A stretch of DNA of 64,000 nucleotides from Gammaproteobacteria bacterium RIFCSPHIGHO2_12_FULL_63_22 (GTDB lineage Bacteria > Pseudomonadota > Gammaproteobacteria > Xanthomonadales > Xanthomonadaceae), in contig MGYJ01000002.1 in NCBI GenBank assembly GCA_001801685.1, positions 38,216 to 102,215 of the forward strand, given 5' to 3'. Shown one piece after another: positions 42,925-61,522 of this stretch. Below the pieces are notes generated by a model. That model had not been told where the DNA came from. It ran no database searches and saw nothing but the letters and a program-made list of their open reading frames with translations. The translations under genes were made by a program, and so were the position numbers. The first letter of the stretch is position 1. The number at the start of each line of letters is the position of its first letter.

Positions 42925-42953
42925 TTGACATCATTCCATTATTCCGGAATAGT
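42925..42953 (+). promoter_or_regulatory. arsR promoter
   Basis: A perfect -35 TTGACA (42925-42930) is followed at 17 bp by AATAGT (42948-42953, four of six -10 positions). Transcription would start near 42960, which is the A of the arsR ATG, so the mRNA may be leaderless. Confidence 0.65.
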
Positions 42954-42957
42954 GGAA
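42934..42957. promoter_or_regulatory. ArsR operator
   Basis: A near-perfect palindrome with 11 of 12 positions paired per arm, centred on ATTCCGGAAT (42941-42950) with outer TTCCA/TGGAA. It covers the spacer and -10 of the arsR promoter, so a bound repressor would block RNA polymerase directly. Confidence 0.75.
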
Positions 42958-42959
42958 CT

Positions 42960-43301
42960 ATGAAGACCCAAACCGCATTGGCCGCACTCAGCGCCCTCAG
43001 CCACGAATCGCGCCTGGCCGCCTTCCGCAAACTGGTGCAGGCCGGCCCCGACGGCATGTCGGTTGGCGAACTGCGTGAACACCTGGACCTGCCGCCGGCG
43101 ACGCTTAGCGCGCACTTGAACATCCTGCGCGCCGCCGCGCTGGTGCACGACCAGCGCGAGGGCCGGGTCATCCGCGTCCGCGCCAACTACCTGCAGATGA
43201 ACACCCTGCTCGCCTACCTCACCGAAAACTGCTGCGCCGGCACCGCCGAATGCGAACCCGCCAGCACCTGCAAACCACGCAAATCCGGAGCCTCGAAATG
43301 A
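42960..43301 (+). CDS. arsR: ArsR-family arsenic-responsive repressor
   Basis: Winged-helix repressor of 113 residues that releases DNA on binding As(III). The core is typical (LSHESRLAAFRKLVQAG, VGELREHLDLPPATLSAHLNIL, VHDQREGRVIRVRANY). The sensing cysteines are not in the DNA-binding helix but near the C-terminus: Cys91, Cys92 and Cys98, the same spacing as Cys95, Cys96 and Cys102 of Acidithiobacillus ferrooxidans ArsR, plus Cys104. The ATG at 42960 fits the family N-terminus; a weak GTGGA is the only ribosome-site candidate. Its stop overlaps the arsI start (ATGA). Confidence 0.93.
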   Translation: MKTQTALAALSALSHESRLAAFRKLVQAGPDGMSVGELREHLDLPPATLSAHLNILRAAALVHDQREGRVIRVRANYLQMNTLLAYLTENCCAGTAECEPASTCKPRKSGASK

Positions 43302-43786
43302 ATCGATTCCATGTCCACCTCAACGTTGCCGACCTCGCCTCCAGCGTCCGTTTCTATTCCGAATTGTTCGCCAGCCAGCCGACCGTGCTGAAGGACGACT
43401 ACGCCAAGTGGATGCTGGAAGATCCGCGCGTCAACTTCGCGATCTCCAACACGGGCCGCGCCCCCGGCATCGACCACCTGGGAATCCAGGCCGAATCCGG
43501 CGACGAGCTGGCCGAGCTCGGCCATCGCCTCGATGCCGCGGGCGGCAGCTTGGTGCCGGAAGAAGCGACGGTCTGTTGCTACGCGAAGTCCGACAAGCTG
43601 TGGACCGAAGACCCGCAGGGTACGCGCTGGGAAACCTTCCACACGGTCGGTGAAGCGACCTCGTATTACGCAGCCGACAGCGCCTGCGCCACGGATGGCG
43701 CAAGTTGCAGCCCCGACGTGCGCGCGATGAAGCCGAAAGTGGACAAGGGCTCGCCCTGCTGCGCGCCTGCGTCCGGCTGCTGCTGA
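43298..43786 (+). CDS. arsI: ArsI-type C-As lyase (VOC family) with Cys-rich tail
   Basis: Fe(II)-dependent dioxygenase of the vicinal-oxygen-chelate fold that, in characterised ArsI, cleaves the carbon-arsenic bond of trivalent organoarsenicals. The 162-residue protein has the metal ligands His5, His60 and Glu112 and the substrate-binding vicinal pair Cys93-Cys94 (ATVCCYAKSDKLW), which separate ArsI from general glyoxalases. The C-terminus carries seven more cysteines (ACATDGASC, SPCCAPASGCC) absent from a minimal VOC domain. Family members are also labelled CadI. It overlaps arsR and precedes arsC by 25 bp. Confidence 0.9.
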   Translation: MNRFHVHLNVADLASSVRFYSELFASQPTVLKDDYAKWMLEDPRVNFAISNTGRAPGIDHLGIQAESGDELAELGHRLDAAGGSLVPEEATVCCYAKSDKLWTEDPQGTRWETFHTVGEATSYYAADSACATDGASCSPDVRAMKPKVDKGSPCCAPASGCC

Positions 43787-43811
43787 CTTCTGACGAACGG
43801 AACTGATTTCC

Positions 43812-44195
43812 ATGAAACGAGTGTTGTTCGTCTGCGTCGAGAATTCCAACCGCAGCCAGATGGCCGAAGCCTTCGCACACATCCACGGCGGCGACGCCGT
43901 GGAGGCGCTCAGCGCAGGTTCGAAGCCTTCGGGACAGATCAATCCGAAGGCCATTCGCTTCATGGGCGAACTCGGCTACGACCTCAACGCGCATTCATCC
44001 AAGTCACTGGACGACATCGAGGGCGAATTCGACGCCGTGGTGACCATGGGTTGCGGCGACAGCTGCCCCTGGGTCCCCGCGAAGCGGCGCGAGGATTGGG
44101 CGCTGCCTGATCCCAAGCACATGGACGACGAGGCTTATCGCGGCGTGCGCGATGAAATTTCGGCCCGCGTCAAATCCTTGCTCGCGTCCCTGTGA
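43812..44195 (+). CDS. arsC: Arsenate reductase, LMW-phosphatase (thioredoxin-type)
   Basis: Reduces arsenate to arsenite, 127 residues in the low-molecular-weight protein tyrosine phosphatase fold. The P-loop Cys8 lies in CVENSNRS (CX5R); the resolving cysteines are Cys81 and Cys85 (TMGCGDSCPW); ALPDPKH supplies the general-acid Asp. These features are of the thioredoxin-coupled class, not the E. coli R773 glutaredoxin class. The stop overlaps the GTG of the aquaporin gene. Confidence 0.95.
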   Translation: MKRVLFVCVENSNRSQMAEAFAHIHGGDAVEALSAGSKPSGQINPKAIRFMGELGYDLNAHSSKSLDDIEGEFDAVVTMGCGDSCPWVPAKRREDWALPDPKHMDDEAYRGVRDEISARVKSLLASL

Positions 44196-44884
44196 CTTCC
44201 CTCTCGCGCAACTTGCTGGCCGAGTTCATCGGCACGGCCCTGTTGCTGGCCACGGTGGTCGGTTCGGGGGTCATGGGCGTGGCCTTGTCGAACGGGAACG
44301 ACGGCATCGCGCTGCTCGCCAACGCGGCGGCGACGGCGGGCGCGCTGTACGTGCTCATTGTCATCCTGGGACCGATTTCCGGCGCGCACTTCAACCCGGC
44401 GGTGACGCTGGTGATGCGGATGCGCGGCGAGATCGACAATCGGGCTGCCGTGGCCTACGTGCTGGTGCAAGTGGTCGCGGCGATTCTCGGCGTGATGCTG
44501 GCGCATGCCATGTTCGAGCAGGCGCTGATCCAGCCAGGGACCCATGCACGCAGCGGCATCGCGCAGTGGCTCAGCGAATCCGTCGCGACGTTTGGGTTGG
44601 TCCTGACCATCCTGCTGGGCGTTCGCCATCGGCCGGCTGCCGTGCCTGCGCTGGTCGCGAGCTACATTTTCGCGGCCTACTGGTTCACCGCCAGCACGTC
44701 ATTCGCCAATCCAGCCGTCACCCTGGCCCGTTCGCTGACGCAATCCTTCGCCGGCATCCGACCCGAGGATGTGATTGCATTCGTCCTGGCGCAGCTCGTC
44801 GGCATGCTCGCCGCCCATGGGGTCGCCCGCGTGTTGCTTGGCCCGCGCGGCGGCACGCACGGGGACGCTGTCGCAAATCGGTAA
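44192..44884 (+). CDS. aqpS: Aquaglyceroporin of arsenic operon (AqpS-like)
   Basis: MIP channel of 230 residues with six membrane segments and both NPA loops (GAHFNPAVTLVMRM and SFANPAVTLARSLT). In Sinorhizobium meliloti an aquaglyceroporin in the ars operon lets arsenite made by ArsC leave the cell by downhill movement; the same role is inferred here since no ArsB or Acr3 pump is coded in the operon. The GTG start overlaps the arsC stop (GTGA). The NPA context with the short Arg-containing selectivity region (LARS) fits bacterial AqpS/GlpF-type channels. Confidence 0.9.
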   Translation: MTSLSRNLLAEFIGTALLLATVVGSGVMGVALSNGNDGIALLANAAATAGALYVLIVILGPISGAHFNPAVTLVMRMRGEIDNRAAVAYVLVQVVAAILGVMLAHAMFEQALIQPGTHARSGIAQWLSESVATFGLVLTILLGVRHRPAAVPALVASYIFAAYWFTASTSFANPAVTLARSLTQSFAGIRPEDVIAFVLAQLVGMLAAHGVARVLLGPRGGTHGDAVANR

Positions 44885-44908
44885 CCCGGCGCGGCTAATC
44901 TTGCGCGC

Positions 44909-46159
44909 ATGAGAATACTGCTGCTGTCCGACGTGTACTTCCCGCGGGTCAATGGCGTATCCACCTCCATCCGCACTTTCGCCGAATCGCTGGCGCGAAT
45001 GGGCCACGCCGTCACCATCGTCGCGCCCGACTATGGCAGCGCCGGCAAGCAGGCCGAGCATGATGGCGGCGGCGCCTACGAGGTCATCCGGCTGCCCTCG
45101 CGCAAGGTGTTCTTCGACCCCGAAGACCGCCTGATCAAGAACTCGGCCCTGCGCGGCGCACTGGCGCGGCTCGCCCTGCGTCGCTGGGACGTCATCCACA
45201 TCCACACGCCATTCCGCGCGCACGCGCTGGGCGTGCGGCTGGCGAAGATCATCCGCTGCCCGACGGTGGAGACCTATCACACGCATTTCGAGGAATACGT
45301 CGGGCTCTACCTGCCCTGGCTGCCATCGGGCCTGTTGCGCGCGTTTGCGAGGCACATGTCGCGTCGACTCTGCCACCAGGTGGACCACCTGATCGTGCCG
45401 TCGCAACAAATGGTGGCGGTGGTGGAGCGCTACGGCATCCGCACCGCTCTCACCATCCTGCCGACGGGCATCGACCTGGGCGAATTCCAGGGCGGCTCGG
45501 GCATGGCGTTTCGGCGCAAGCATGGCATCGATGCGGGCCGCCCGATACTGGTGACGGTCAGCCGCCTGGCGCGGGAAAAGAACATCGGCTTCCTTATCGA
45601 CGTTACCCAACGGCTGGTAGCGGAATTTCCAAACCTGCTGTTCGTGGTCGCCGGCGAAGGCCCGGACGCTCCGCGCCTGAAGCAACTCAGCGCCAGCCTC
45701 GGCCTGGAAAAAAACCTGAGCTTCTTCGGCAACCTGGATCGGCGCACCGAGTTGCTCGATTGTTACCGGGCCGGCGATATCTTCATCTTCGCCTCGCCGA
45801 CCGAGACGCAGGGCCTGGTGCTGATCGAGGCAATGGCGCTCGGATTGCCGATCGTGTCCACGGCGGTGATGGGCACCGCAACCGTACTCAAGGACGCGGG
45901 CGGCGCGCGCATCAGCGCGGAAGACCCGGCACAATTTGCCGCGCACGCGGCCGAGCTTTTGCGCTCGCCTAGTCAGCGCGAAGCGCTGGGCATGGCCAGC
46001 CTGGTGGATGCCCGCGCCTGGAGCGTGGAAGGCTTGATGCACCGCGTCGTGGACCTGTACGCCCGCCTGGGTTCAGGCGGCCTCGGCGATGCATCGTATC
46101 GGCTGGATTCGGCTGGACAGGCAGGCCAACTCCACGCCGGTGTGCCCAAGCAACTTTAG
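44909..46159 (+). CDS. GT4 glycosyltransferase, diacylglycerol glucosyltransferase-like
   Basis: Membrane-associated GT-B enzyme of 416 residues. The N-terminal DVYFPRVNGVSTSIRT, the acceptor-side VETYHTHFEEYV and IVPSQQMVAVVERYG...LPTGIDLGEF, and the donor-side GEGPDAPRL and SPTETQGLVLIEAMALGLPIV closely resemble alpha-monoglucosyldiacylglycerol synthases (alMGS-type) of GT4. A glycolipid product from diacylglycerol is therefore likely but not proven. It starts 24 bp after aqpS with no terminator between, so read-through from the ars promoter is possible; a TAATCT (44896) could give it a leaderless promoter. Its last 87 bp overlap the convergent phosphoesterase gene. Confidence 0.85.
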   Translation: MRILLLSDVYFPRVNGVSTSIRTFAESLARMGHAVTIVAPDYGSAGKQAEHDGGGAYEVIRLPSRKVFFDPEDRLIKNSALRGALARLALRRWDVIHIHTPFRAHALGVRLAKIIRCPTVETYHTHFEEYVGLYLPWLPSGLLRAFARHMSRRLCHQVDHLIVPSQQMVAVVERYGIRTALTILPTGIDLGEFQGGSGMAFRRKHGIDAGRPILVTVSRLAREKNIGFLIDVTQRLVAEFPNLLFVVAGEGPDAPRLKQLSASLGLEKNLSFFGNLDRRTELLDCYRAGDIFIFASPTETQGLVLIEAMALGLPIVSTAVMGTATVLKDAGGARISAEDPAQFAAHAAELLRSPSQREALGMASLVDARAWSVEGLMHRVVDLYARLGSGGLGDASYRLDSAGQAGQLHAGVPKQL

Positions 46160-46888
46160 GTTGCCCTCGCTGTCTTCGGCCAGCACGCTCAGGCTCTCGA
46201 CCCAGTCGCCGTCGTTCGCGTACACCAGGCCATCCACCACCCGCAGGTCGGCGCGATGGATATGCCCGCAAATGATGCCGTCGAGTCCGCGCCGACGTGC
46301 ATCGTCCAGGCCGGCGCGCACGAATCTTTCGATGTAGTGTTCGGCCGCGCTGCTCTTGCGCTTCAGGAAGTCTGCCAGCGACCAGTAGCGCAATCCCAGC
46401 CGGCGCCGCAGTGCGTTGGTCACTCGATTGCCGCTGAGGATCACGTAGTACAACCAGTTGCCGAAGGCTTCGCGCGCATCGCCGGCCTGCACCGCGCCAT
46501 CGTAGTCGTCGCCGTGGGTGACGAGCAGGCGGCGGCCGTCCAGCATCGTGTGCACGGTGCGGCGCCGGAAACGCATCCTCGGCAACACCAGTCCGCACAG
46601 CTGTCGCATCGGCCGGTCGTGGTTGCCGGGTACGTACACCAGCTCGCAACCCTGCCTGGCCAGTGCGTGCAACGCCGCGATGACACGATGCTGCGGCTCG
46701 CCCCAGGTGGCGCGCTTCTGCGCCAGCCACCACAGGTCGACGATGTCACCGACCAGGTAAAGGCGCTGGCATCGAAGGCCGGACAGGAAGCTGGCCAGTT
46801 CGCTCGCGTGGCAATGGGTGGAGCCCAGGTGCACATCGGAGAGGAACACGGCCCGATGCATGTTCGGGGCATCGGGCCGGGGAGTCAT
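46073..46888 (-). CDS. PlcP-like / UDP-diacylglucosamine diphosphatase-like metallophosphoesterase
   Basis: Calcineurin-fold phosphoesterase of 271 residues with the complete metal site: FLSDVHLG, LVGDIVDLWW, VPGNHDRPM, LVTHGDDYDG and GHIHRAD. The segments GDIVDLWWLAQKRATWG and LRYWSLADFLKRK are those of COG2908 proteins, the group that contains phosphate-starvation phospholipase PlcP, and differ from classical LpxH. In PlcP-containing bacteria the gene neighbours a lipid glycosyltransferase, as here. The ATG at 46888 overlaps the stop of the acyltransferase gene (ATGA). Phospholipid hydrolysis to diacylglycerol is inferred. Confidence 0.82.
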   Translation of the reverse strand: MTPRPDAPNMHRAVFLSDVHLGSTHCHASELASFLSGLRCQRLYLVGDIVDLWWLAQKRATWGEPQHRVIAALHALARQGCELVYVPGNHDRPMRQLCGLVLPRMRFRRRTVHTMLDGRRLLVTHGDDYDGAVQAGDAREAFGNWLYYVILSGNRVTNALRRRLGLRYWSLADFLKRKSSAAEHYIERFVRAGLDDARRRGLDGIICGHIHRADLRVVDGLVYANDGDWVESLSVLAEDSEGNLKLLGHTGVELACLSSRIQPIRCIAEAA

Positions 46889-48606
46889 GCGGATTGCAGT
46901 CCGCGACATGCGATCGCCGGTGCTTCGAGATACCGCACGCGCTTGCGCGGCTTGATCGCGCTCAGGTCCAGCTCGATCAGGCCGTCAACCGCATTCGCGA
47001 AACCCGGATCCACGCCAAAAGCCAGGAAGCGAACGCCGCCAGGCTCGCACAGCTCGGTGTACTGCTTGTACAAGGTCGGCACCTTGGCGCCCAAGCGGTC
47101 GAGGTTGGCCTTGAGGACCTGGAAACTGGCCTCCGCGTCCAGGTCGCCAAAATTCGGCGCAGCGCCCTCAAACTGGAATGGATGCAGGGCCCGCGCCTGT
47201 TCGCTGCGGGCTCCGAAATAGTTCTGGTAATACGCCACCAGCTGGTCACGCGCCGATGCGGGCAAGGCAGCGCTCGCCGACACCGAACCGAACAGGTAAC
47301 GCACCTGCGGATGCTGGCGCAGCCAGGCGCCGACGCCGGTCCACAGGTAGTCGAGGCTGCGCGAGTTCCAGTAGGCCGGCGCCACGAAACTCCGCCCCAG
47401 TTCGACGCCCTGCGCCAGGCGCGGCAACATCGAGCAGTCGAATCGAAACAGCGACGCGGTGTAAAAACCCTCGATGCCACGCTCGGCCAGCACCTGCTCG
47501 CCCAGTGCAACCCGGTAGGCTCCGGCAATTTCGAGCGCCTCCGGGTCCCACAAGACGATGTGCTCGTACCAGCCGTCATACGCGTCCACGTCGAGACGCC
47601 GGCCGGTGCCCTCGCCGACGGCTCGAAAACTCAATTCCCTCAATCGGCCAATCTCGCGCAGCAGCAGCGAATCGGGGTCAAGCCGGCCAGCATGGATGCG
47701 CTTGCCATCCGCAGTGTGGCCGAGTACCGGTAGTGCGCGCAGGGCGGCAAGCAAGGCACTGCGATCGACCGCCGGCACCAGCGCCTCCATGCCGGGCGCG
47801 CGGACTTCCTTGCGCGTTCCGATTGCGTAAAGCGTCTTCCTTACCGTGGCAAGCGCGTCGGCCGGCGCCTGTGTCGTCAGGATCCGCAAGGGATGGCCGA
47901 TGCGCATTTCCAGCCGGGCGCCGCTGCGCATGAAGATTTCGCGTGGCAACAGCAGCGTGCCGAGCGGTTTGAAAAGTGCCGAAGCACCATAGAACAAGGC
48001 GGAATTGCGGGCCTTGATCTTGACCGGCAGCACCGGCGCACCGGATTTCCGGGCAAAGCGCAGGAAGCCACGTCGCCAGCGCGTGTCGGTTATTCCGCGC
48101 CAATGCAGGCGCGACACCTCGCCAGCTGGAAAGACGATCACGCACTGTTCGTCGGCCAGCGCGCGTTCGATCGCTCCGATGCTTTCTCCACCCGGGCCGC
48201 CGCCCATCATTCGAAGCGGCAGCAGGATCGGGCGCAAGCTCTCGATGCGCATCAGCAGGTCATTGCCGACGATCTTGACGTCGCGCCGCAAGCTGCCCAC
48301 CAGATGCAGCAGGGCCAGTGCGTCGTGCGCACCGGCCGGATGGTTTGCCACGATCAACAGACGGCCCGTCCGCGGAATCCGGTCGCGTTCGACCTGGTCA
48401 ACGGTGTAGCGCACGCGCAGGAATTCCAGGGCCGCCTCGACGAACGCGAAGCCCCTCAGGTGTCGATGGCTGTCGAGGAAGGACGCGGCGCGGTCGAGCT
48501 TCGCGAACCGGCCAAAGGTGCGCGCGACCGAACGTGGCCAGGCGCCGCGGGCTCCGGCGAACCAGCGCGGGTGACGTTCGGCGAGAATTCGGTCAAGTTC
48601 GAGCAT
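46885..48606 (-). CDS. OlsF-like two-domain acyltransferase (ornithine lipid synthesis)
   Basis: A 573-residue fusion. The N-terminal half (about 40-290) is a PlsC-type O-acyltransferase with Asn88-His89...Asp95 (ANHPAGAHD, the HX5D form) and VIVFPAGEVSR. The C-terminal half (about 340-540) is a GNAT/hemolysin-type N-acyltransferase like OlsB (REIGRLRELSFRAVGEGTG, EIAGAYRVALG, ELGRSFVAPAYWNSRSLDYLW). This arrangement matches OlsF of Serratia, which makes ornithine lipids: the OlsB half acylates ornithine and the OlsA half adds the second chain. The ATG at 48606 follows no obvious strong ribosome site. It heads a two-gene operon with the PlcP-like gene and diverges from a phosphate-binding protein. 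Confidence 0.83.
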   Translation of the reverse strand: MLELDRILAERHPRWFAGARGAWPRSVARTFGRFAKLDRAASFLDSHRHLRGFAFVEAALEFLRVRYTVDQVERDRIPRTGRLLIVANHPAGAHDALALLHLVGSLRRDVKIVGNDLLMRIESLRPILLPLRMMGGGPGGESIGAIERALADEQCVIVFPAGEVSRLHWRGITDTRWRRGFLRFARKSGAPVLPVKIKARNSALFYGASALFKPLGTLLLPREIFMRSGARLEMRIGHPLRILTTQAPADALATVRKTLYAIGTRKEVRAPGMEALVPAVDRSALLAALRALPVLGHTADGKRIHAGRLDPDSLLLREIGRLRELSFRAVGEGTGRRLDVDAYDGWYEHIVLWDPEALEIAGAYRVALGEQVLAERGIEGFYTASLFRFDCSMLPRLAQGVELGRSFVAPAYWNSRSLDYLWTGVGAWLRQHPQVRYLFGSVSASAALPASARDQLVAYYQNYFGARSEQARALHPFQFEGAAPNFGDLDAEASFQVLKANLDRLGAKVPTLYKQYTELCEPGGVRFLAFGVDPGFANAVDGLIELDLSAIKPRKRVRYLEAPAIACRGLQSA

Positions 48607-48672
48607 GCGCTCAGGTTGGTATGTGCCCAGGCGCAGCCTAAGGCGGTTACGCGACAGGCAAATGGCAGCGCG

Positions 48673-48690
48673 ATGTCGACGCCATGACAA
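48673..48690 (-). promoter_or_regulatory. Pho-box-like site facing the OlsF-PlcP operon
   Basis: On the minus strand TTGTCATGGCGTCGACAT resembles the Pho box (two CTGTCAT units four bases apart): first unit six of seven, second four of seven. It is 67 bp before the OlsF-like start. PhoB control is inference. Confidence 0.5.
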
Positions 48691-48696
48691 CTGCGC

Positions 48697-48714
48697 GTGT
48701 CATACCGCTGCAAT
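48697..48714 (+). promoter_or_regulatory. Pho-box-like site facing the phosphate-binding protein gene
   Basis: GTGTCATACCGCTGCAAT has two CTGTCAT-like units (six and five of seven) four bases apart, 40 bp before the ATG at 48754. With the minus-strand site it forms the inverted repeat ATGACA-N8-TGTCAT (48684-48703). Confidence 0.5.
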
Positions 48715-48753
48715 ACCACCTGCGCATGCTGATTCGCTCTGCGTGGAGGTTCC

Positions 48754-50073
48754 ATGTCCAGCTTTTTTCGCGTGCTCGTCCTTGCCGTCGCATCACTCGC
48801 TTGCCAGTCGGTCGCGGCCCAGGTCGACGACACCGAACGGCTTCGCATCCATGGCTCCAATCTCCTTGGCGCGCGCCTGGTGCCGGCACTGGTCGAAAGC
48901 TGGCTGAAAGACATCGGCTACAGCCAGGTCAAGCGGCGCGATCTCGGCCCGACCCGGACCGAGATTGGCGCCGTGCGCGACGGCGTGCCGCTGATCGTCG
49001 AGATCGACAAGCGCGGCACGGCATCCGGCCTGCAGGCGATCATCGCTGGCGAGGCCGAAATCTGCATGTCGGCGCGACAGCCGAACGCGCAAGAAATTGA
49101 CGATGCCTGGCAGCTGGGTGACTTGAAGTCACCCACCCAGGAGTGGGTGGTTGGGCTGGATGGGCTGGTGTTGCTGGTCTCGCCTGACAACCCTGTCCAG
49201 GCCTTGGGCAAGCAGCAATTGCGCGATGTGCTTGCGGGCAGGATTCGCGATTGGCAGCAACTCGGGGCGACGGCAGGACCCATCGCAGTGCACACCCTGT
49301 CAACGGCCTCCGGCACGCAGGAGGCACTGACACGCATCGTTTTGGCCGGTGACAAGACTATGCCCGGCCTGGTCCGGCATTCCACCCAGGCCAAAGTGCT
49401 CGCTGCCGTGCGAAGCGATCCACGCAGCATCGGCATCATTGGGCTACGCGCCCCGCGCGGCGGCCTTCGCGCGCTCGCGATCAGCACGGGTGGCCGGTCG
49501 ATTTCGCCGGACACCCTTGGCATCGCCTCGGAAGACTATCCCCTGACCCGACGCGTGTATTTCCACACCGGCCAGATGATTACCGCACTGGGTCGCGGCT
49601 TCGCGCAGTGGGTGGTGTCGCCGGCCGGACAAGCTGCCGTCGAACGCTCGCAATTCGTATCCCTGTCGGTTCGGCCGCAAGCGCCGGGCCGCATCGACAG
49701 GGCGCCTGCCGAATACCAGCAGATGGTCTCCAACGCCCAACGCTTGCCCATGACTCTTCGATTTTCCACGGGCCTCGACCTGTTCGACAGCAGGGCGCGA
49801 CAGGACATCGAGCGCCTGGCTGCCTTTATGAAGCGTCCGGAAAACGCCAAGCGGCGCGTTGTGCTGATGGGCTTCGCCAATCCGCAACCGCGCTCGCCCA
49901 TGCAGTCACTCTTCATGAGCCAGGAACGCGCCGACTTGGTGTCCAGCGAAATGCTGGCATTGAACATGAAGGTGGTCACGGTTCGCGGATTCGGCGGCAA
50001 AATGAACCTGCTGGACGCGTCGCAGCCGGCATCGCGCTACTGGAATGATCGGGTCGAGGTCTGGTTGCGATAA
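48754..50073 (+). CDS. Phosphate-binding-protein-like domain fused to OmpA-like domain
   Basis: Exported 439-residue protein. Signal peptide about 1-22 (SVAAQV). Residues about 28-310 resemble a PstS-type periplasmic binding protein (LRIHGSNLLGARLVPALV at the phosphate-loop position, ISAR-like AEICMSARQP, LDGLVLLVSPDNPV, TASGTQEALTR). Residues about 320-439 are an OmpA-like peptidoglycan-binding domain (LRFSTGLDLFDSRARQDIERLAAFM, MSQERADLVSSEML). Such fusions are annotated as phosphate-binding/OmpA proteins; ligand binding is inferred. A GGAGG precedes the ATG. It diverges from the OlsF-like gene across a Pho-box-like region. Confidence 0.87.
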   Translation: MSSFFRVLVLAVASLACQSVAAQVDDTERLRIHGSNLLGARLVPALVESWLKDIGYSQVKRRDLGPTRTEIGAVRDGVPLIVEIDKRGTASGLQAIIAGEAEICMSARQPNAQEIDDAWQLGDLKSPTQEWVVGLDGLVLLVSPDNPVQALGKQQLRDVLAGRIRDWQQLGATAGPIAVHTLSTASGTQEALTRIVLAGDKTMPGLVRHSTQAKVLAAVRSDPRSIGIIGLRAPRGGLRALAISTGGRSISPDTLGIASEDYPLTRRVYFHTGQMITALGRGFAQWVVSPAGQAAVERSQFVSLSVRPQAPGRIDRAPAEYQQMVSNAQRLPMTLRFSTGLDLFDSRARQDIERLAAFMKRPENAKRRVVLMGFANPQPRSPMQSLFMSQERADLVSSEMLALNMKVVTVRGFGGKMNLLDASQPASRYWNDRVEVWLR

Positions 50074-59932: not shown

Positions 59933-61522
59933 GTGAAACCCGCCTTCATCCTGGGCCTGCTGCTGTTGCTTGGCAGCGGCACGACGGCGGCGCGGTCCTC
60001 GCTGGACGACAACGCCCTGCAACGTGGCAACGGGCCGGAGCCGTCCACCCTGGATGCGCATCGCTGCCCTGAAGTGGCCTGCGGCAATATACTGCGCGAC
60101 CTGTATGAAGGCCTGGTGGCAGAAGACGCGCGCGGCCAGGTCATTCCGGGCATGGCGGAACGCTGGGTCGTTTCCGCCGATGGCCGGCAATGGACCTTCC
60201 ACCTGCGTCCCGGCTTGCGCTGGAGCAACGGCCAGCCGCTGACCGCCGGCCAGGTCGTCGCCAGTTTCCGCCGCGCCTTCGAACCGGCCACGGCGGCGCC
60301 CTTCGCCGTGCATTTCGACGCGATAAAAAACGCAACCCGCGTCCTGCGCGGTGAAGCGCCGCCGGGTGCGATCGGCATCGTGGCGCCGGACGAGCGCACC
60401 GTGGTCTTCCGCCTCGATCGCAGCGCGGCCTTGCCGCAGCTGCTGTTGTTGCCGATTGCCTATCCCGTGTACCTGCCCGCGCTGCGCGAGTTCGGCGCAC
60501 AACACACGCGTCCGGGCAAGCTGGTCAGCAATGGCGCCTACCGGCTCGCGCAATGGGCGCCGCAAGCGTCGGTGACGCTGCTGCGCAACCCCCGGTTTCG
60601 CGAGGCGCCCGCCATCGCGCGCATTGATTTCCTGGTGACGGAAGACGCCGCCAGTGAATTGCAGCGCTTCCAGGCCGGCGGCCTGCATATCACCGAAACC
60701 GTGCCACCACAGCCCTTGCCACAATTGCGCAAGCGCTTCGGCGCGCAACTGCGCATCAGCCCGTACCTGGGATCGATGTGGCTCGGCCTGAACCTGGCGC
60801 AGCCGCCGATGCGCGGCAATCCGTCGCTGCGCGAAGCGCTGTCGCTGGCGATCGATCGCGACAAGCTGACGCGCTACATCACCGGCCTGGGCGAAACGCC
60901 AGCCTACGGCGTGGTGCCGCCCGGCGTTGCCGACTACACGCCCGCCGCCCTTCCCTGGTCGCGCAATACGCAAGCCGCGCGTGAAGCCCTGGCGCGGCAA
61001 CGCTACCGCGCGGCCGGTTATTCCGATGCCAAACCCTTGCAGATCGAACTTCGCTACAACACGTCCACGCCGCACCGCCGCCTGAACCTGGCCGTCGCGG
61101 CGATGTGGCGCGAGGTGTTGGGCGCGCGCGTCACGCTGCGCAATGAAGAATGGAAAGTGTTCGTCGGCAATCGCAAGCAACGGGTGATTACCCAGGCCTT
61201 TCGCGGCGGCTGGATCGCCGACGTGAACGATGCGCGCAATTTCCTGGCCAATTTTGAAACCGGCAGCGTCACCAACTGGAGCGGCCTGGCCGATCCGGCC
61301 TTCGATGCCTTGCTGAAGGCCGCGGACAATGCGGCATCGCCTGCGCTTCGATCCGCCGCCTTGCGCCGCGCCGAGGCCCATCTGTTGGCGCGGCATGCCG
61401 TGGTGCCGGTTTATTTCTACACGTCCAAGCACCTGGTTCGCCCCGAGGTCCAAGGCTTCGAGGCCAACCCGCTCGACCACCATCCCAGCCGCTTCCTTTC
61501 CATCCTGCCGGTGGCACGATGA
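59933..61522 (+). CDS. Peptide/oligopeptide ABC transporter substrate-binding protein (OppA-like)
   Basis: Exported extracytoplasmic solute-binding protein of family 5, 529 residues. Signal peptide about 1-20 (GTTAARS). The body is typical (LYEGLVAEDARGQVIPGMAERW, WTFHLRPGLRWSNGQPLTAGQV, YLGSMWLGLNLAQPPM, RDKLTRYITGLGETPAYGVVPPGV, VIPVYF-like VVPVYFYTSKHL). It begins with GTG. It is closest in shape to OppA/MppA. The stop overlaps the ATG of the permease gene (ATGA). No OppC, OppD or OppF gene follows. Confidence 0.92.
   Translation: MKPAFILGLLLLLGSGTTAARSSLDDNALQRGNGPEPSTLDAHRCPEVACGNILRDLYEGLVAEDARGQVIPGMAERWVVSADGRQWTFHLRPGLRWSNGQPLTAGQVVASFRRAFEPATAAPFAVHFDAIKNATRVLRGEAPPGAIGIVAPDERTVVFRLDRSAALPQLLLLPIAYPVYLPALREFGAQHTRPGKLVSNGAYRLAQWAPQASVTLLRNPRFREAPAIARIDFLVTEDAASELQRFQAGGLHITETVPPQPLPQLRKRFGAQLRISPYLGSMWLGLNLAQPPMRGNPSLREALSLAIDRDKLTRYITGLGETPAYGVVPPGVADYTPAALPWSRNTQAAREALARQRYRAAGYSDAKPLQIELRYNTSTPHRRLNLAVAAMWREVLGARVTLRNEEWKVFVGNRKQRVITQAFRGGWIADVNDARNFLANFETGSVTNWSGLADPAFDALLKAADNAASPALRSAALRRAEAHLLARHAVVPVYFYTSKHLVRPEVQGFEANPLDHHPSRFLSILPVAR

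Follow-up and report, generated by a model that had tools for sequence, protein, structure and literature searches.

A probable Pho-controlled lipid-remodelling locus joining plcP and olsF with a non-Agt glycosyltransferase gene in a gammaproteobacterial draft genome

The phosphoesterase PlcP has already been described together with the glycosyltransferase Agt, together with betaine-lipid genes, or alone, and the six types of gene context distinguished in the accessible part of that work do not include olsF (PMC4796936; statements on this and the other cited papers refer to their accessible parts). In Pseudomonas, PlcP and OlsAB are under PhoBR (PMC5082522), a marine metagenome study names OlsF as the most frequent aminolipid gene in Gammaproteobacteria and Bacteroidetes (PMC6298996), and Vibrio cholerae is reported to make ornithine lipid when phosphate is low (PMC12186959). 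The locus considered here lies at 44909-50073 of a stretch of 64,000 nucleotides (the window) from Gammaproteobacteria bacterium RIFCSPHIGHO2_12_FULL_63_22, on contig C2 (MGYJ01000002.1) of a 4.26-Mb draft genome (G000). Its four genes encode a GT4-family glycosyltransferase (GT4-X), a PlcP-type phosphoesterase, a predicted OlsF and a PstS-like/OmpA-like protein, and we consider it quite probable that they form a PhoB-controlled membrane lipid-remodelling locus. We also incline, if only slightly, to a wider reading, in which PlcP would be a partner-exchanging hub that, besides its links with Agt and BtaBA, is translationally coupled to OlsF in Lysobacteraceae and related families; GT4-X would represent an undescribed, independent family of diacylglycerol glycosyltransferases, distinct from Agt and recurrently linked to plcP in gammaproteobacteria; and in the window genome a single locus under Pho control would bring together the OlsF branch, the GT4-X branch and an envelope protein that binds phosphate.

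With the plcP-agt operon (Agrobacterium agt, SAR11, Pseudomonas aeruginosa PA3219-PA3218, Methylosinus) the locus shares a PlcP beside a GT4, Pho boxes and the phospholipid-to-glycolipid logic (PMC4796936, PMC8528852, PMC9239053). Unlike in that operon, the GT4 of the window is not an Agt, is convergent with plcP and has a promoter-like box of its own. Pseudomonas likewise both breaks down phospholipids and makes ornithine lipid within a single organism, in a PhoBR-dependent manner in P. putida BIRD-1, but does the latter through OlsAB instead of OlsF, and the BIRD-1 locus tags of plcP and olsAB are far apart (PMC5082522). The OlsF of Serratia, Flavobacterium and V. cholerae is the same bifunctional two-domain enzyme as that of the window (PMC11631085); in the window olsF is coupled to plcP by an ATGA, whereas what is accessible of PMC12186959 and PMC11631085, on other OlsF, does not mention plcP. 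In Phaeobacter MED193 the plcP-btaBA set, like the window, places plcP with the synthase of a phosphorus-free lipid (PMC4796936). The lipid in question is a betaine lipid, unlike the ornithine lipid predicted for the window. Betaine lipid is built on diacylglycerol, and ornithine lipid is not. The olsF-plcP pair was not found reported in the accessible literature on PlcP and OlsF (including PMC9239053, PMC6298996 and PMC5082522), supplements and most subscription journals being outside the search. The parts of the system are known, and the combination of phospholipid breakdown with two phosphorus-free lipid branches was not found described.

The comparative data come from 120 relatives (own genome included), 274 genomes sampled across the class and 80 named loci; PstS-OmpA was not part of the class-sample search. 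Among all of these, OlsF, PlcP and GT4-X come together only in the window genome. The preliminary description of this DNA had regarded a locus with both a glycolipid and an ornithine-lipid branch as a non-standard arrangement, and this novelty claim holds for the exact set but is otherwise weakened, because two-branch loci with Agt exist elsewhere: a member of the same genus (G006) has plcP-agt-olsF (L069), and L233, L234, L238 and L239 combine plcP and Agt with OlsF or an OlsF-like gene, which in L238/G258 and L239/G330 is OlsF-like and scores under the OlsF cut-off. These five loci rule out the uniqueness of the two-branch locus as such. Judged by linkage, PlcP has alternative partners (Agt, GT4-X and OlsF), and the window genome joins two of them.

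All four genes are open reading frames at the positions given beforehand, and open reading frames and domains together bear out the layout originally drawn: the GT4-X gene (44909..46159, + strand) faces the plcP-type gene (- strand), the two being called convergent because their 3' ends overlap (87 bp), and olsF, joined to plcP by the ATGA, is on the same - strand and divergent from the PstS-like/OmpA-like gene (48754..50073, + strand). This neighbourhood exceeds chance, in that the adjacency of olsF and plcP is kept and GT4-X recurs near plcP; the survey of related genomes that had been proposed as a check uncovered recurrent links. In that survey 91 of the 120 relatives matched in the plcP search, 70 of them (own genome included) above the level of LpxH matches, and 60 loci were retrieved from the 69 others, those of G001, G003, G009, G010, G011, G015, G018, G019 and G056 being left out (many fragments or short contigs). 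A search of the own genome with PF12850 gave no match even though the window protein matches PF12850, so such a search can miss. Most of the named PlcP loci that match best come from Lysobacteraceae (Pseudoxanthomonas, Luteimonas, Lysobacter, Stenotrophomonas, Xanthomonas chitinilytica), and the genome is therefore assigned to this family.

The phosphoesterase (open reading frame 46073-46909, likely gene 46073..46888, - strand) carries PF12850/PF00149, and its likely start was placed at M8 (46888) because of the ATGA coupling, the ATG and the olsF stop sharing positions 46885-46888. Neither of the two LpxH equivalog models is matched above its cut-off (39.7 bits against 134, and 34.5 against 190.35). 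The LpxH of the genome is encoded separately, on contig C47 (316.7 bits), and has GNRD where the window protein has GNHD. Against a profile built from 41 PlcPs linked to Agt (after a length filter, the window type left out) the window protein reaches 306.7 bits, compared with 390-392 for the reference PlcPs and 33.3 and 31.0 for the E. coli and own LpxH. A tree of 90 rows (those of the window type chosen by hand, the others length-filtered and every second one kept, plus 20 class loci) separates the two LpxH by a 100/100 branch and gathers the window type in a single clade (22 rows, support 100/98) that lies with the PlcPs, without fixing the exact place of that clade among PlcPs. Seven residues (D25, H27, D55, N96, H132, H216 and H218) are invariant among 17 PlcPs; we take them to be the metal ligands of the calcineurin type. 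As references we used a plcP-agt pair on a P. aeruginosa plasmid (L230) and an S. meliloti protein (L229) encoded beside acyl-homoserine-lactone (AHL) synthase and LuxR genes, presumably locus SMc00171. In L230 the glycosyltransferase gene directly follows plcP, matching the description of PA3219-PA3218, and the identity of the two references to each other (46.6%) fits the 46% published for PA3219 and the S. meliloti PlcP (PMC8528852); the window protein is 35-40% identical to them. An identity as LpxH is ruled out by the cut-offs, the profile, the tree and the separate own LpxH, so that the result named beforehand as refuting the reading at sequence level did not occur. The phosphoesterase belongs with the validated PlcPs, the kind it had been assigned to at the outset, and phospholipase C activity is predicted for it. 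As a side observation, many plasmid records with plcP matches are labelled 'UDP-2,3-diacylglucosamine diphosphatase', and a plcP match is present on three P. aeruginosa plasmids, on one of which (pHPA0698-2, L230) plcP and the glycosyltransferase gene are in a stretch of chromosomal look.

The two-domain acyltransferase is encoded by an open reading frame that opens at 48690 (- strand), the likely gene being 46885..48606; the start at 48606 was chosen because the match to the OlsF equivalog NF052615 (NCBIfam) begins at residue 29. That match reaches 695.7 bits (cut-off 620), both expected domains are present (PF19576 N-terminal, PF13444 C-terminal), and the GlsA and GlsB models are far under their cut-offs. 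The enzyme is OlsF, as had been proposed from its domain layout, and synthesis of ornithine lipid is predicted for it. Among the 60 retrieved loci, 36 have a plcP at least 55% identical to that of the window, and olsF is directly upstream on the same strand in 33 of them. The exceptions are L035 (G036) and L057 (G065), whose genomes have no olsF match, and L053, in which olsF is 2.8 kb away on the opposite strand and plcP has its own 10-of-14 Pho-box-like site (see below for the score). Of 45 pairs that are adjacent on the same strand (two of them duplicating others), 35 have a predicted overlap of 4 bp between the two genes, and the named loci of the window type have the pair in 11 of 14 cases, or in 9 of 11 once three duplicates of retrieved relatives (L149, L151 and L154) are set aside. 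In the class sample, 31 genomes besides the own one match the OlsF profile (E<=1e-60) and 22 of these have plcP, the two within 2.5 kb of each other in 7 of the 22, although five of those seven OlsF matches are below the OlsF cut-off. The olsF-plcP pair is therefore an old one, the usual arrangement among the retrieved relatives and not peculiar to the window genome. In the relatives' plcP-olsF loci (L033-L062) plcP is frequently followed by a gene for a YdjM-type (PF04307) membrane protein, and metK, ahcY and metF are frequent on the far side of olsF; none of these genes is present in the window. One of the named loci, L151, comes from a metagenome-assembled genome labelled Rhizobium, which is probably mislabelled: its PlcP is identical to, and its plcP-olsF contig as long as, that of G023, of the window's genus.

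GT4-X carries PF13439 and PF00534 (Pfam) and an EX7E motif at residue 299. The resemblance to diacylglycerol glucosyltransferases noted earlier persists in that its best NCBIfam model is alpha-monoglucosyl-DAG (diacylglycerol) synthase (Mgs, NF049988), but at 143 bits the cut-off of 400 is not reached, the protein is not Agt, and its product is a prediction. The GlcN-PG synthase model, at 94.6 bits, is likewise far under its cut-off. GT4-X is 28% identical to Agt1 and scores 119 bits on an Agt profile (built from 40 sequences after a length filter) on which Agt1 scores 470, and in a quick-method tree it stands in a clade separate from Agt; only the GT4-X and Agt groups of this tree were used, since it also contained spurious frames of the own genome on very long branches. 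Profile score and separate clade rule out GT4-X as Agt. Orthologues (E<=1e-60) occur in 17 of the 119 other relatives, 13 of which have plcP. In the class sample GT4-X was found in 29 genomes besides the own one, 25 of them also with plcP (8.2 expected, p ~7e-12), and in 12 of these 25 it is within 2.5 kb of plcP, when about 0.05 such cases would be expected (assuming a 3.3-Mb genome); the distance in these 12 is at most about 2.2 kb. GT4-X is also near plcP in L197, L219 and L057. It is the sole glycosyltransferase near plcP, of the two kinds searched, in L242, L244, L246, L247, L249 and L250; Agt accompanies it in L241, L243, L245 and L251, and a weaker Agt-like match does so in L248 and L252. 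Being separate from Agt and recurrent near plcP, GT4-X is a plcP-linked family in its own right, which sometimes apparently replaces and sometimes accompanies Agt, and its members may glycosylate diacylglycerol. Where GT4-X orthologues are not near plcP, the genes around them (DUF1993, DUF998, MerR, MFS, MOSC and others) gave no functional hint. On its other side, the GT4-X gene of the window follows an arsenic-resistance cluster (42951-44884) with genes for an ArsR-family regulator, a glyoxalase-fold protein, an ArsC-type reductase and an aquaporin. Homologues of arsC occur in 4 of the 60 plcP loci of relatives (L076, L078, L091 and L092), arsC and arsR in 2 of the 80 named ones (L170 and L193), and arsC in 0 of 20 class loci and in none of 36 GT4-X and PstS-OmpA loci. 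A second GT4 of the own genome, outside the window (L253, C82:5608-6492), groups with a glycosyltransferase near arsC and plcP in G085.

The fourth gene had been described as a PstS-like/OmpA fusion. Its first part stands as a PstS-like periplasmic phosphate-binding domain: PF12849 (PBP_like_2) is met with 79.2 bits and the best PDB matches are phosphate-binding proteins, although the PstS model TIGR02136 (92 bits) does not reach its cut-off of 206.6. The C-terminal OmpA-like part is degenerate, with a weak match to PF00691 (22.4 bits vs the Pfam cut-off of 27.2) and N376 where D is the commonest letter (48%) among 21 aligned rows. Orthologues (E<=1e-25) are present in 31 of the 119 other relatives, and loci were retrieved for 20 of the 31; a gene of a phosphate-selective porin cluster, assigned to PF07396 by testing its L069 member, is within ~5 kb in 5 of the 20.

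Common control of these genes, which the preliminary description had inferred, finds support in the sequence upstream of each transcription unit. Sites were scored by the positions, of 14, that match the consensus CTGTCATNNNNCTGTCAT (PMC8528852), taking the best forward site within 150 bp upstream and a mark of at least 10 of 14. The stretch of 147 bp between the likely olsF start (48606) and the PstS-like gene (48754) contains two divergent Pho-box-like sites: three half sites spaced by 11 bp before olsF-plcP (48651..48679, - strand), whose best consensus 18-mer (48651-48668, CTGCCATttgcCTGTCGC) scores 11, and GTGTCATaccgCTGCAAT (48697..48714, + strand) before the PstS-OmpA gene, also with 11. 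Before GT4-X, CTGTCGCaaatCGGTAAC (44868..44885, + strand) scores 9 and starts 41 bp before the gene, an offset shared with the orthologues and at which (-40..-42) 14 of 1376 background genes score at least 9. The mark is reached by 29 of 39 olsF upstreams (window included; Fisher p 1e-24), 12 of 17 upstreams of GT4-X orthologues (p 7e-11) and 13 of 20 of PstS-OmpA orthologues (p 6e-11), compared with 6.7% of 1336 background genes from the same loci, in tests that count related genomes as separate; in a control, none of 33 loci reaches it in the 150 bp that precede plcP and belong to the adjoining olsF. The sites of the olsF orthologues occupy the same region as in the window, and outside its genus 19 of 28 olsF loci reach the mark (forward strand, 250 bp). 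By a matrix made from 11 of 17 GT4-X orthologue sites (those scoring at least 8 at -40..-42, the window left out), the PstS-OmpA site ranks 2nd in the 64-kb window, the GT4-X site 3rd and a half-site-shifted olsF site (48662-48679) 6th; the top match, 60105-60122 (- strand), is inside a predicted gene (59933-61522, + strand). A -10-like hexamer, TAATCT, follows the GT4-X box by 10 bp and precedes the ATG by 7 bp, and by eye a TAnnnT hexamer was seen ~10 bp downstream of the box region, only a few bases ahead of the start codon, in 9 of the 17 orthologues besides the window; its closeness to the start codon suggests that GT4-X transcripts may be leaderless. PhoB is encoded in the genome (367 bits, cut-off 296.2), which together with boxes before all three transcription units supports predicted membership in the Pho regulon.

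What can be read from the sequence are the gene identities and family placement, the ATGA coupling, the conserved linkage, the enrichment of boxes and the presence of PhoB; the earlier interpretation as a lipid-remodelling locus is supported at this level. We infer from them every enzymatic step, PhoB binding, the GT4-X sugar and the joint operation of the genes, as follows. On phosphate limitation, PhoB would bind the boxes before olsF-plcP, GT4-X and the PstS-OmpA gene. PlcP would then cut the head groups of phospholipids, yielding diacylglycerol and recycling phosphate, and GT4-X would add a sugar to that diacylglycerol to give a glycolipid. OlsF, independently of diacylglycerol, would join two acyl chains to ornithine to form ornithine lipid, and the PstS-like protein may help to capture periplasmic phosphate.

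Several observations weigh against a locus that works as one. As for the boxes themselves, 10 of the 39 olsF upstreams remain under 10 of 14, the window GT4-X box is weak with its 9, and the olsF 18-mer at 48651-48668 is only 73rd by the matrix. In the class sample, just one of the 12 GT4-X genes close to plcP has a box of at least 10 within 150 bp upstream, which speaks against a general rule. The second GT4 of the genome is nearer Agt (218.9 bits on the Agt profile), and four of the 17 closer relatives with GT4-X have no plcP-level match. Could it be, then, that only olsF-plcP is a functional unit, and that GT4-X and the PstS-OmpA gene, which would belong to the same Pho regulon or to the ars cluster, are adjacent here by chance? 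Among those 17 relatives plcP is alongside GT4-X only in G065 (L057, 50 bp apart), no PstS-OmpA match was found in any of the 60 retrieved plcP loci of relatives, and GT4-X starts 24 bp after the ars-cluster aquaporin gene and may thus also be read with that cluster. The recurrent position close to plcP, in the class sample and also in L197, L219 and L057, however, and the promoter-like box that GT4-X keeps at the orthologous offset, make chance adjacency rather unlikely.

Even within a lipid-remodelling locus, single enzymes might do something else. Under phosphate stress GT4-X could use an acceptor other than diacylglycerol, such as phosphatidylglycerol, a polyprenol or a surface polysaccharide, as would fit the distance of both Mgs and GlcN-PG synthase from their cut-offs and the low identity to Agt1; nevertheless, Mgs is its best model, and in the six loci where it is the sole searched kind near plcP a user of diacylglycerol would be expected, so that we regard another acceptor as unlikely. 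That the OlsF-linked phosphoesterases are related to PlcP but have shifted to another phosphodiester or pyrophosphate substrate seems very improbable: they form their own clade with moderate identity to the reference PlcPs, and their usual partner, OlsF, does not use diacylglycerol, but the metal-ligand positions are kept and the member in G065, a genome with no olsF match, is the one beside GT4-X. As for the acyltransferase, head-group specificity is not readable from sequence and an aminolipid with glycine, lysine or glutamine could be made in place of ornithine lipid, a decidedly unlikely outcome considering that the OlsF equivalog cut-off is passed by 76 bits and those of GlsA and GlsB are far from being reached.

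If the lipid-remodelling reading is true, phosphate-stress lipid remodelling would extend from alphaproteobacteria, marine bacteria and Pseudomonas, for which the cited papers describe it, to Lysobacteraceae, in which phospholipid breakdown would be coupled to ornithine-lipid synthesis in a conserved manner. GT4-X would indicate a second, testable family of plcP-linked glycosyltransferases and, in addition, a rule combining synteny and Pho boxes could serve to correct the 'UDP-2,3-diacylglucosamine diphosphatase' labels on plcP matches.

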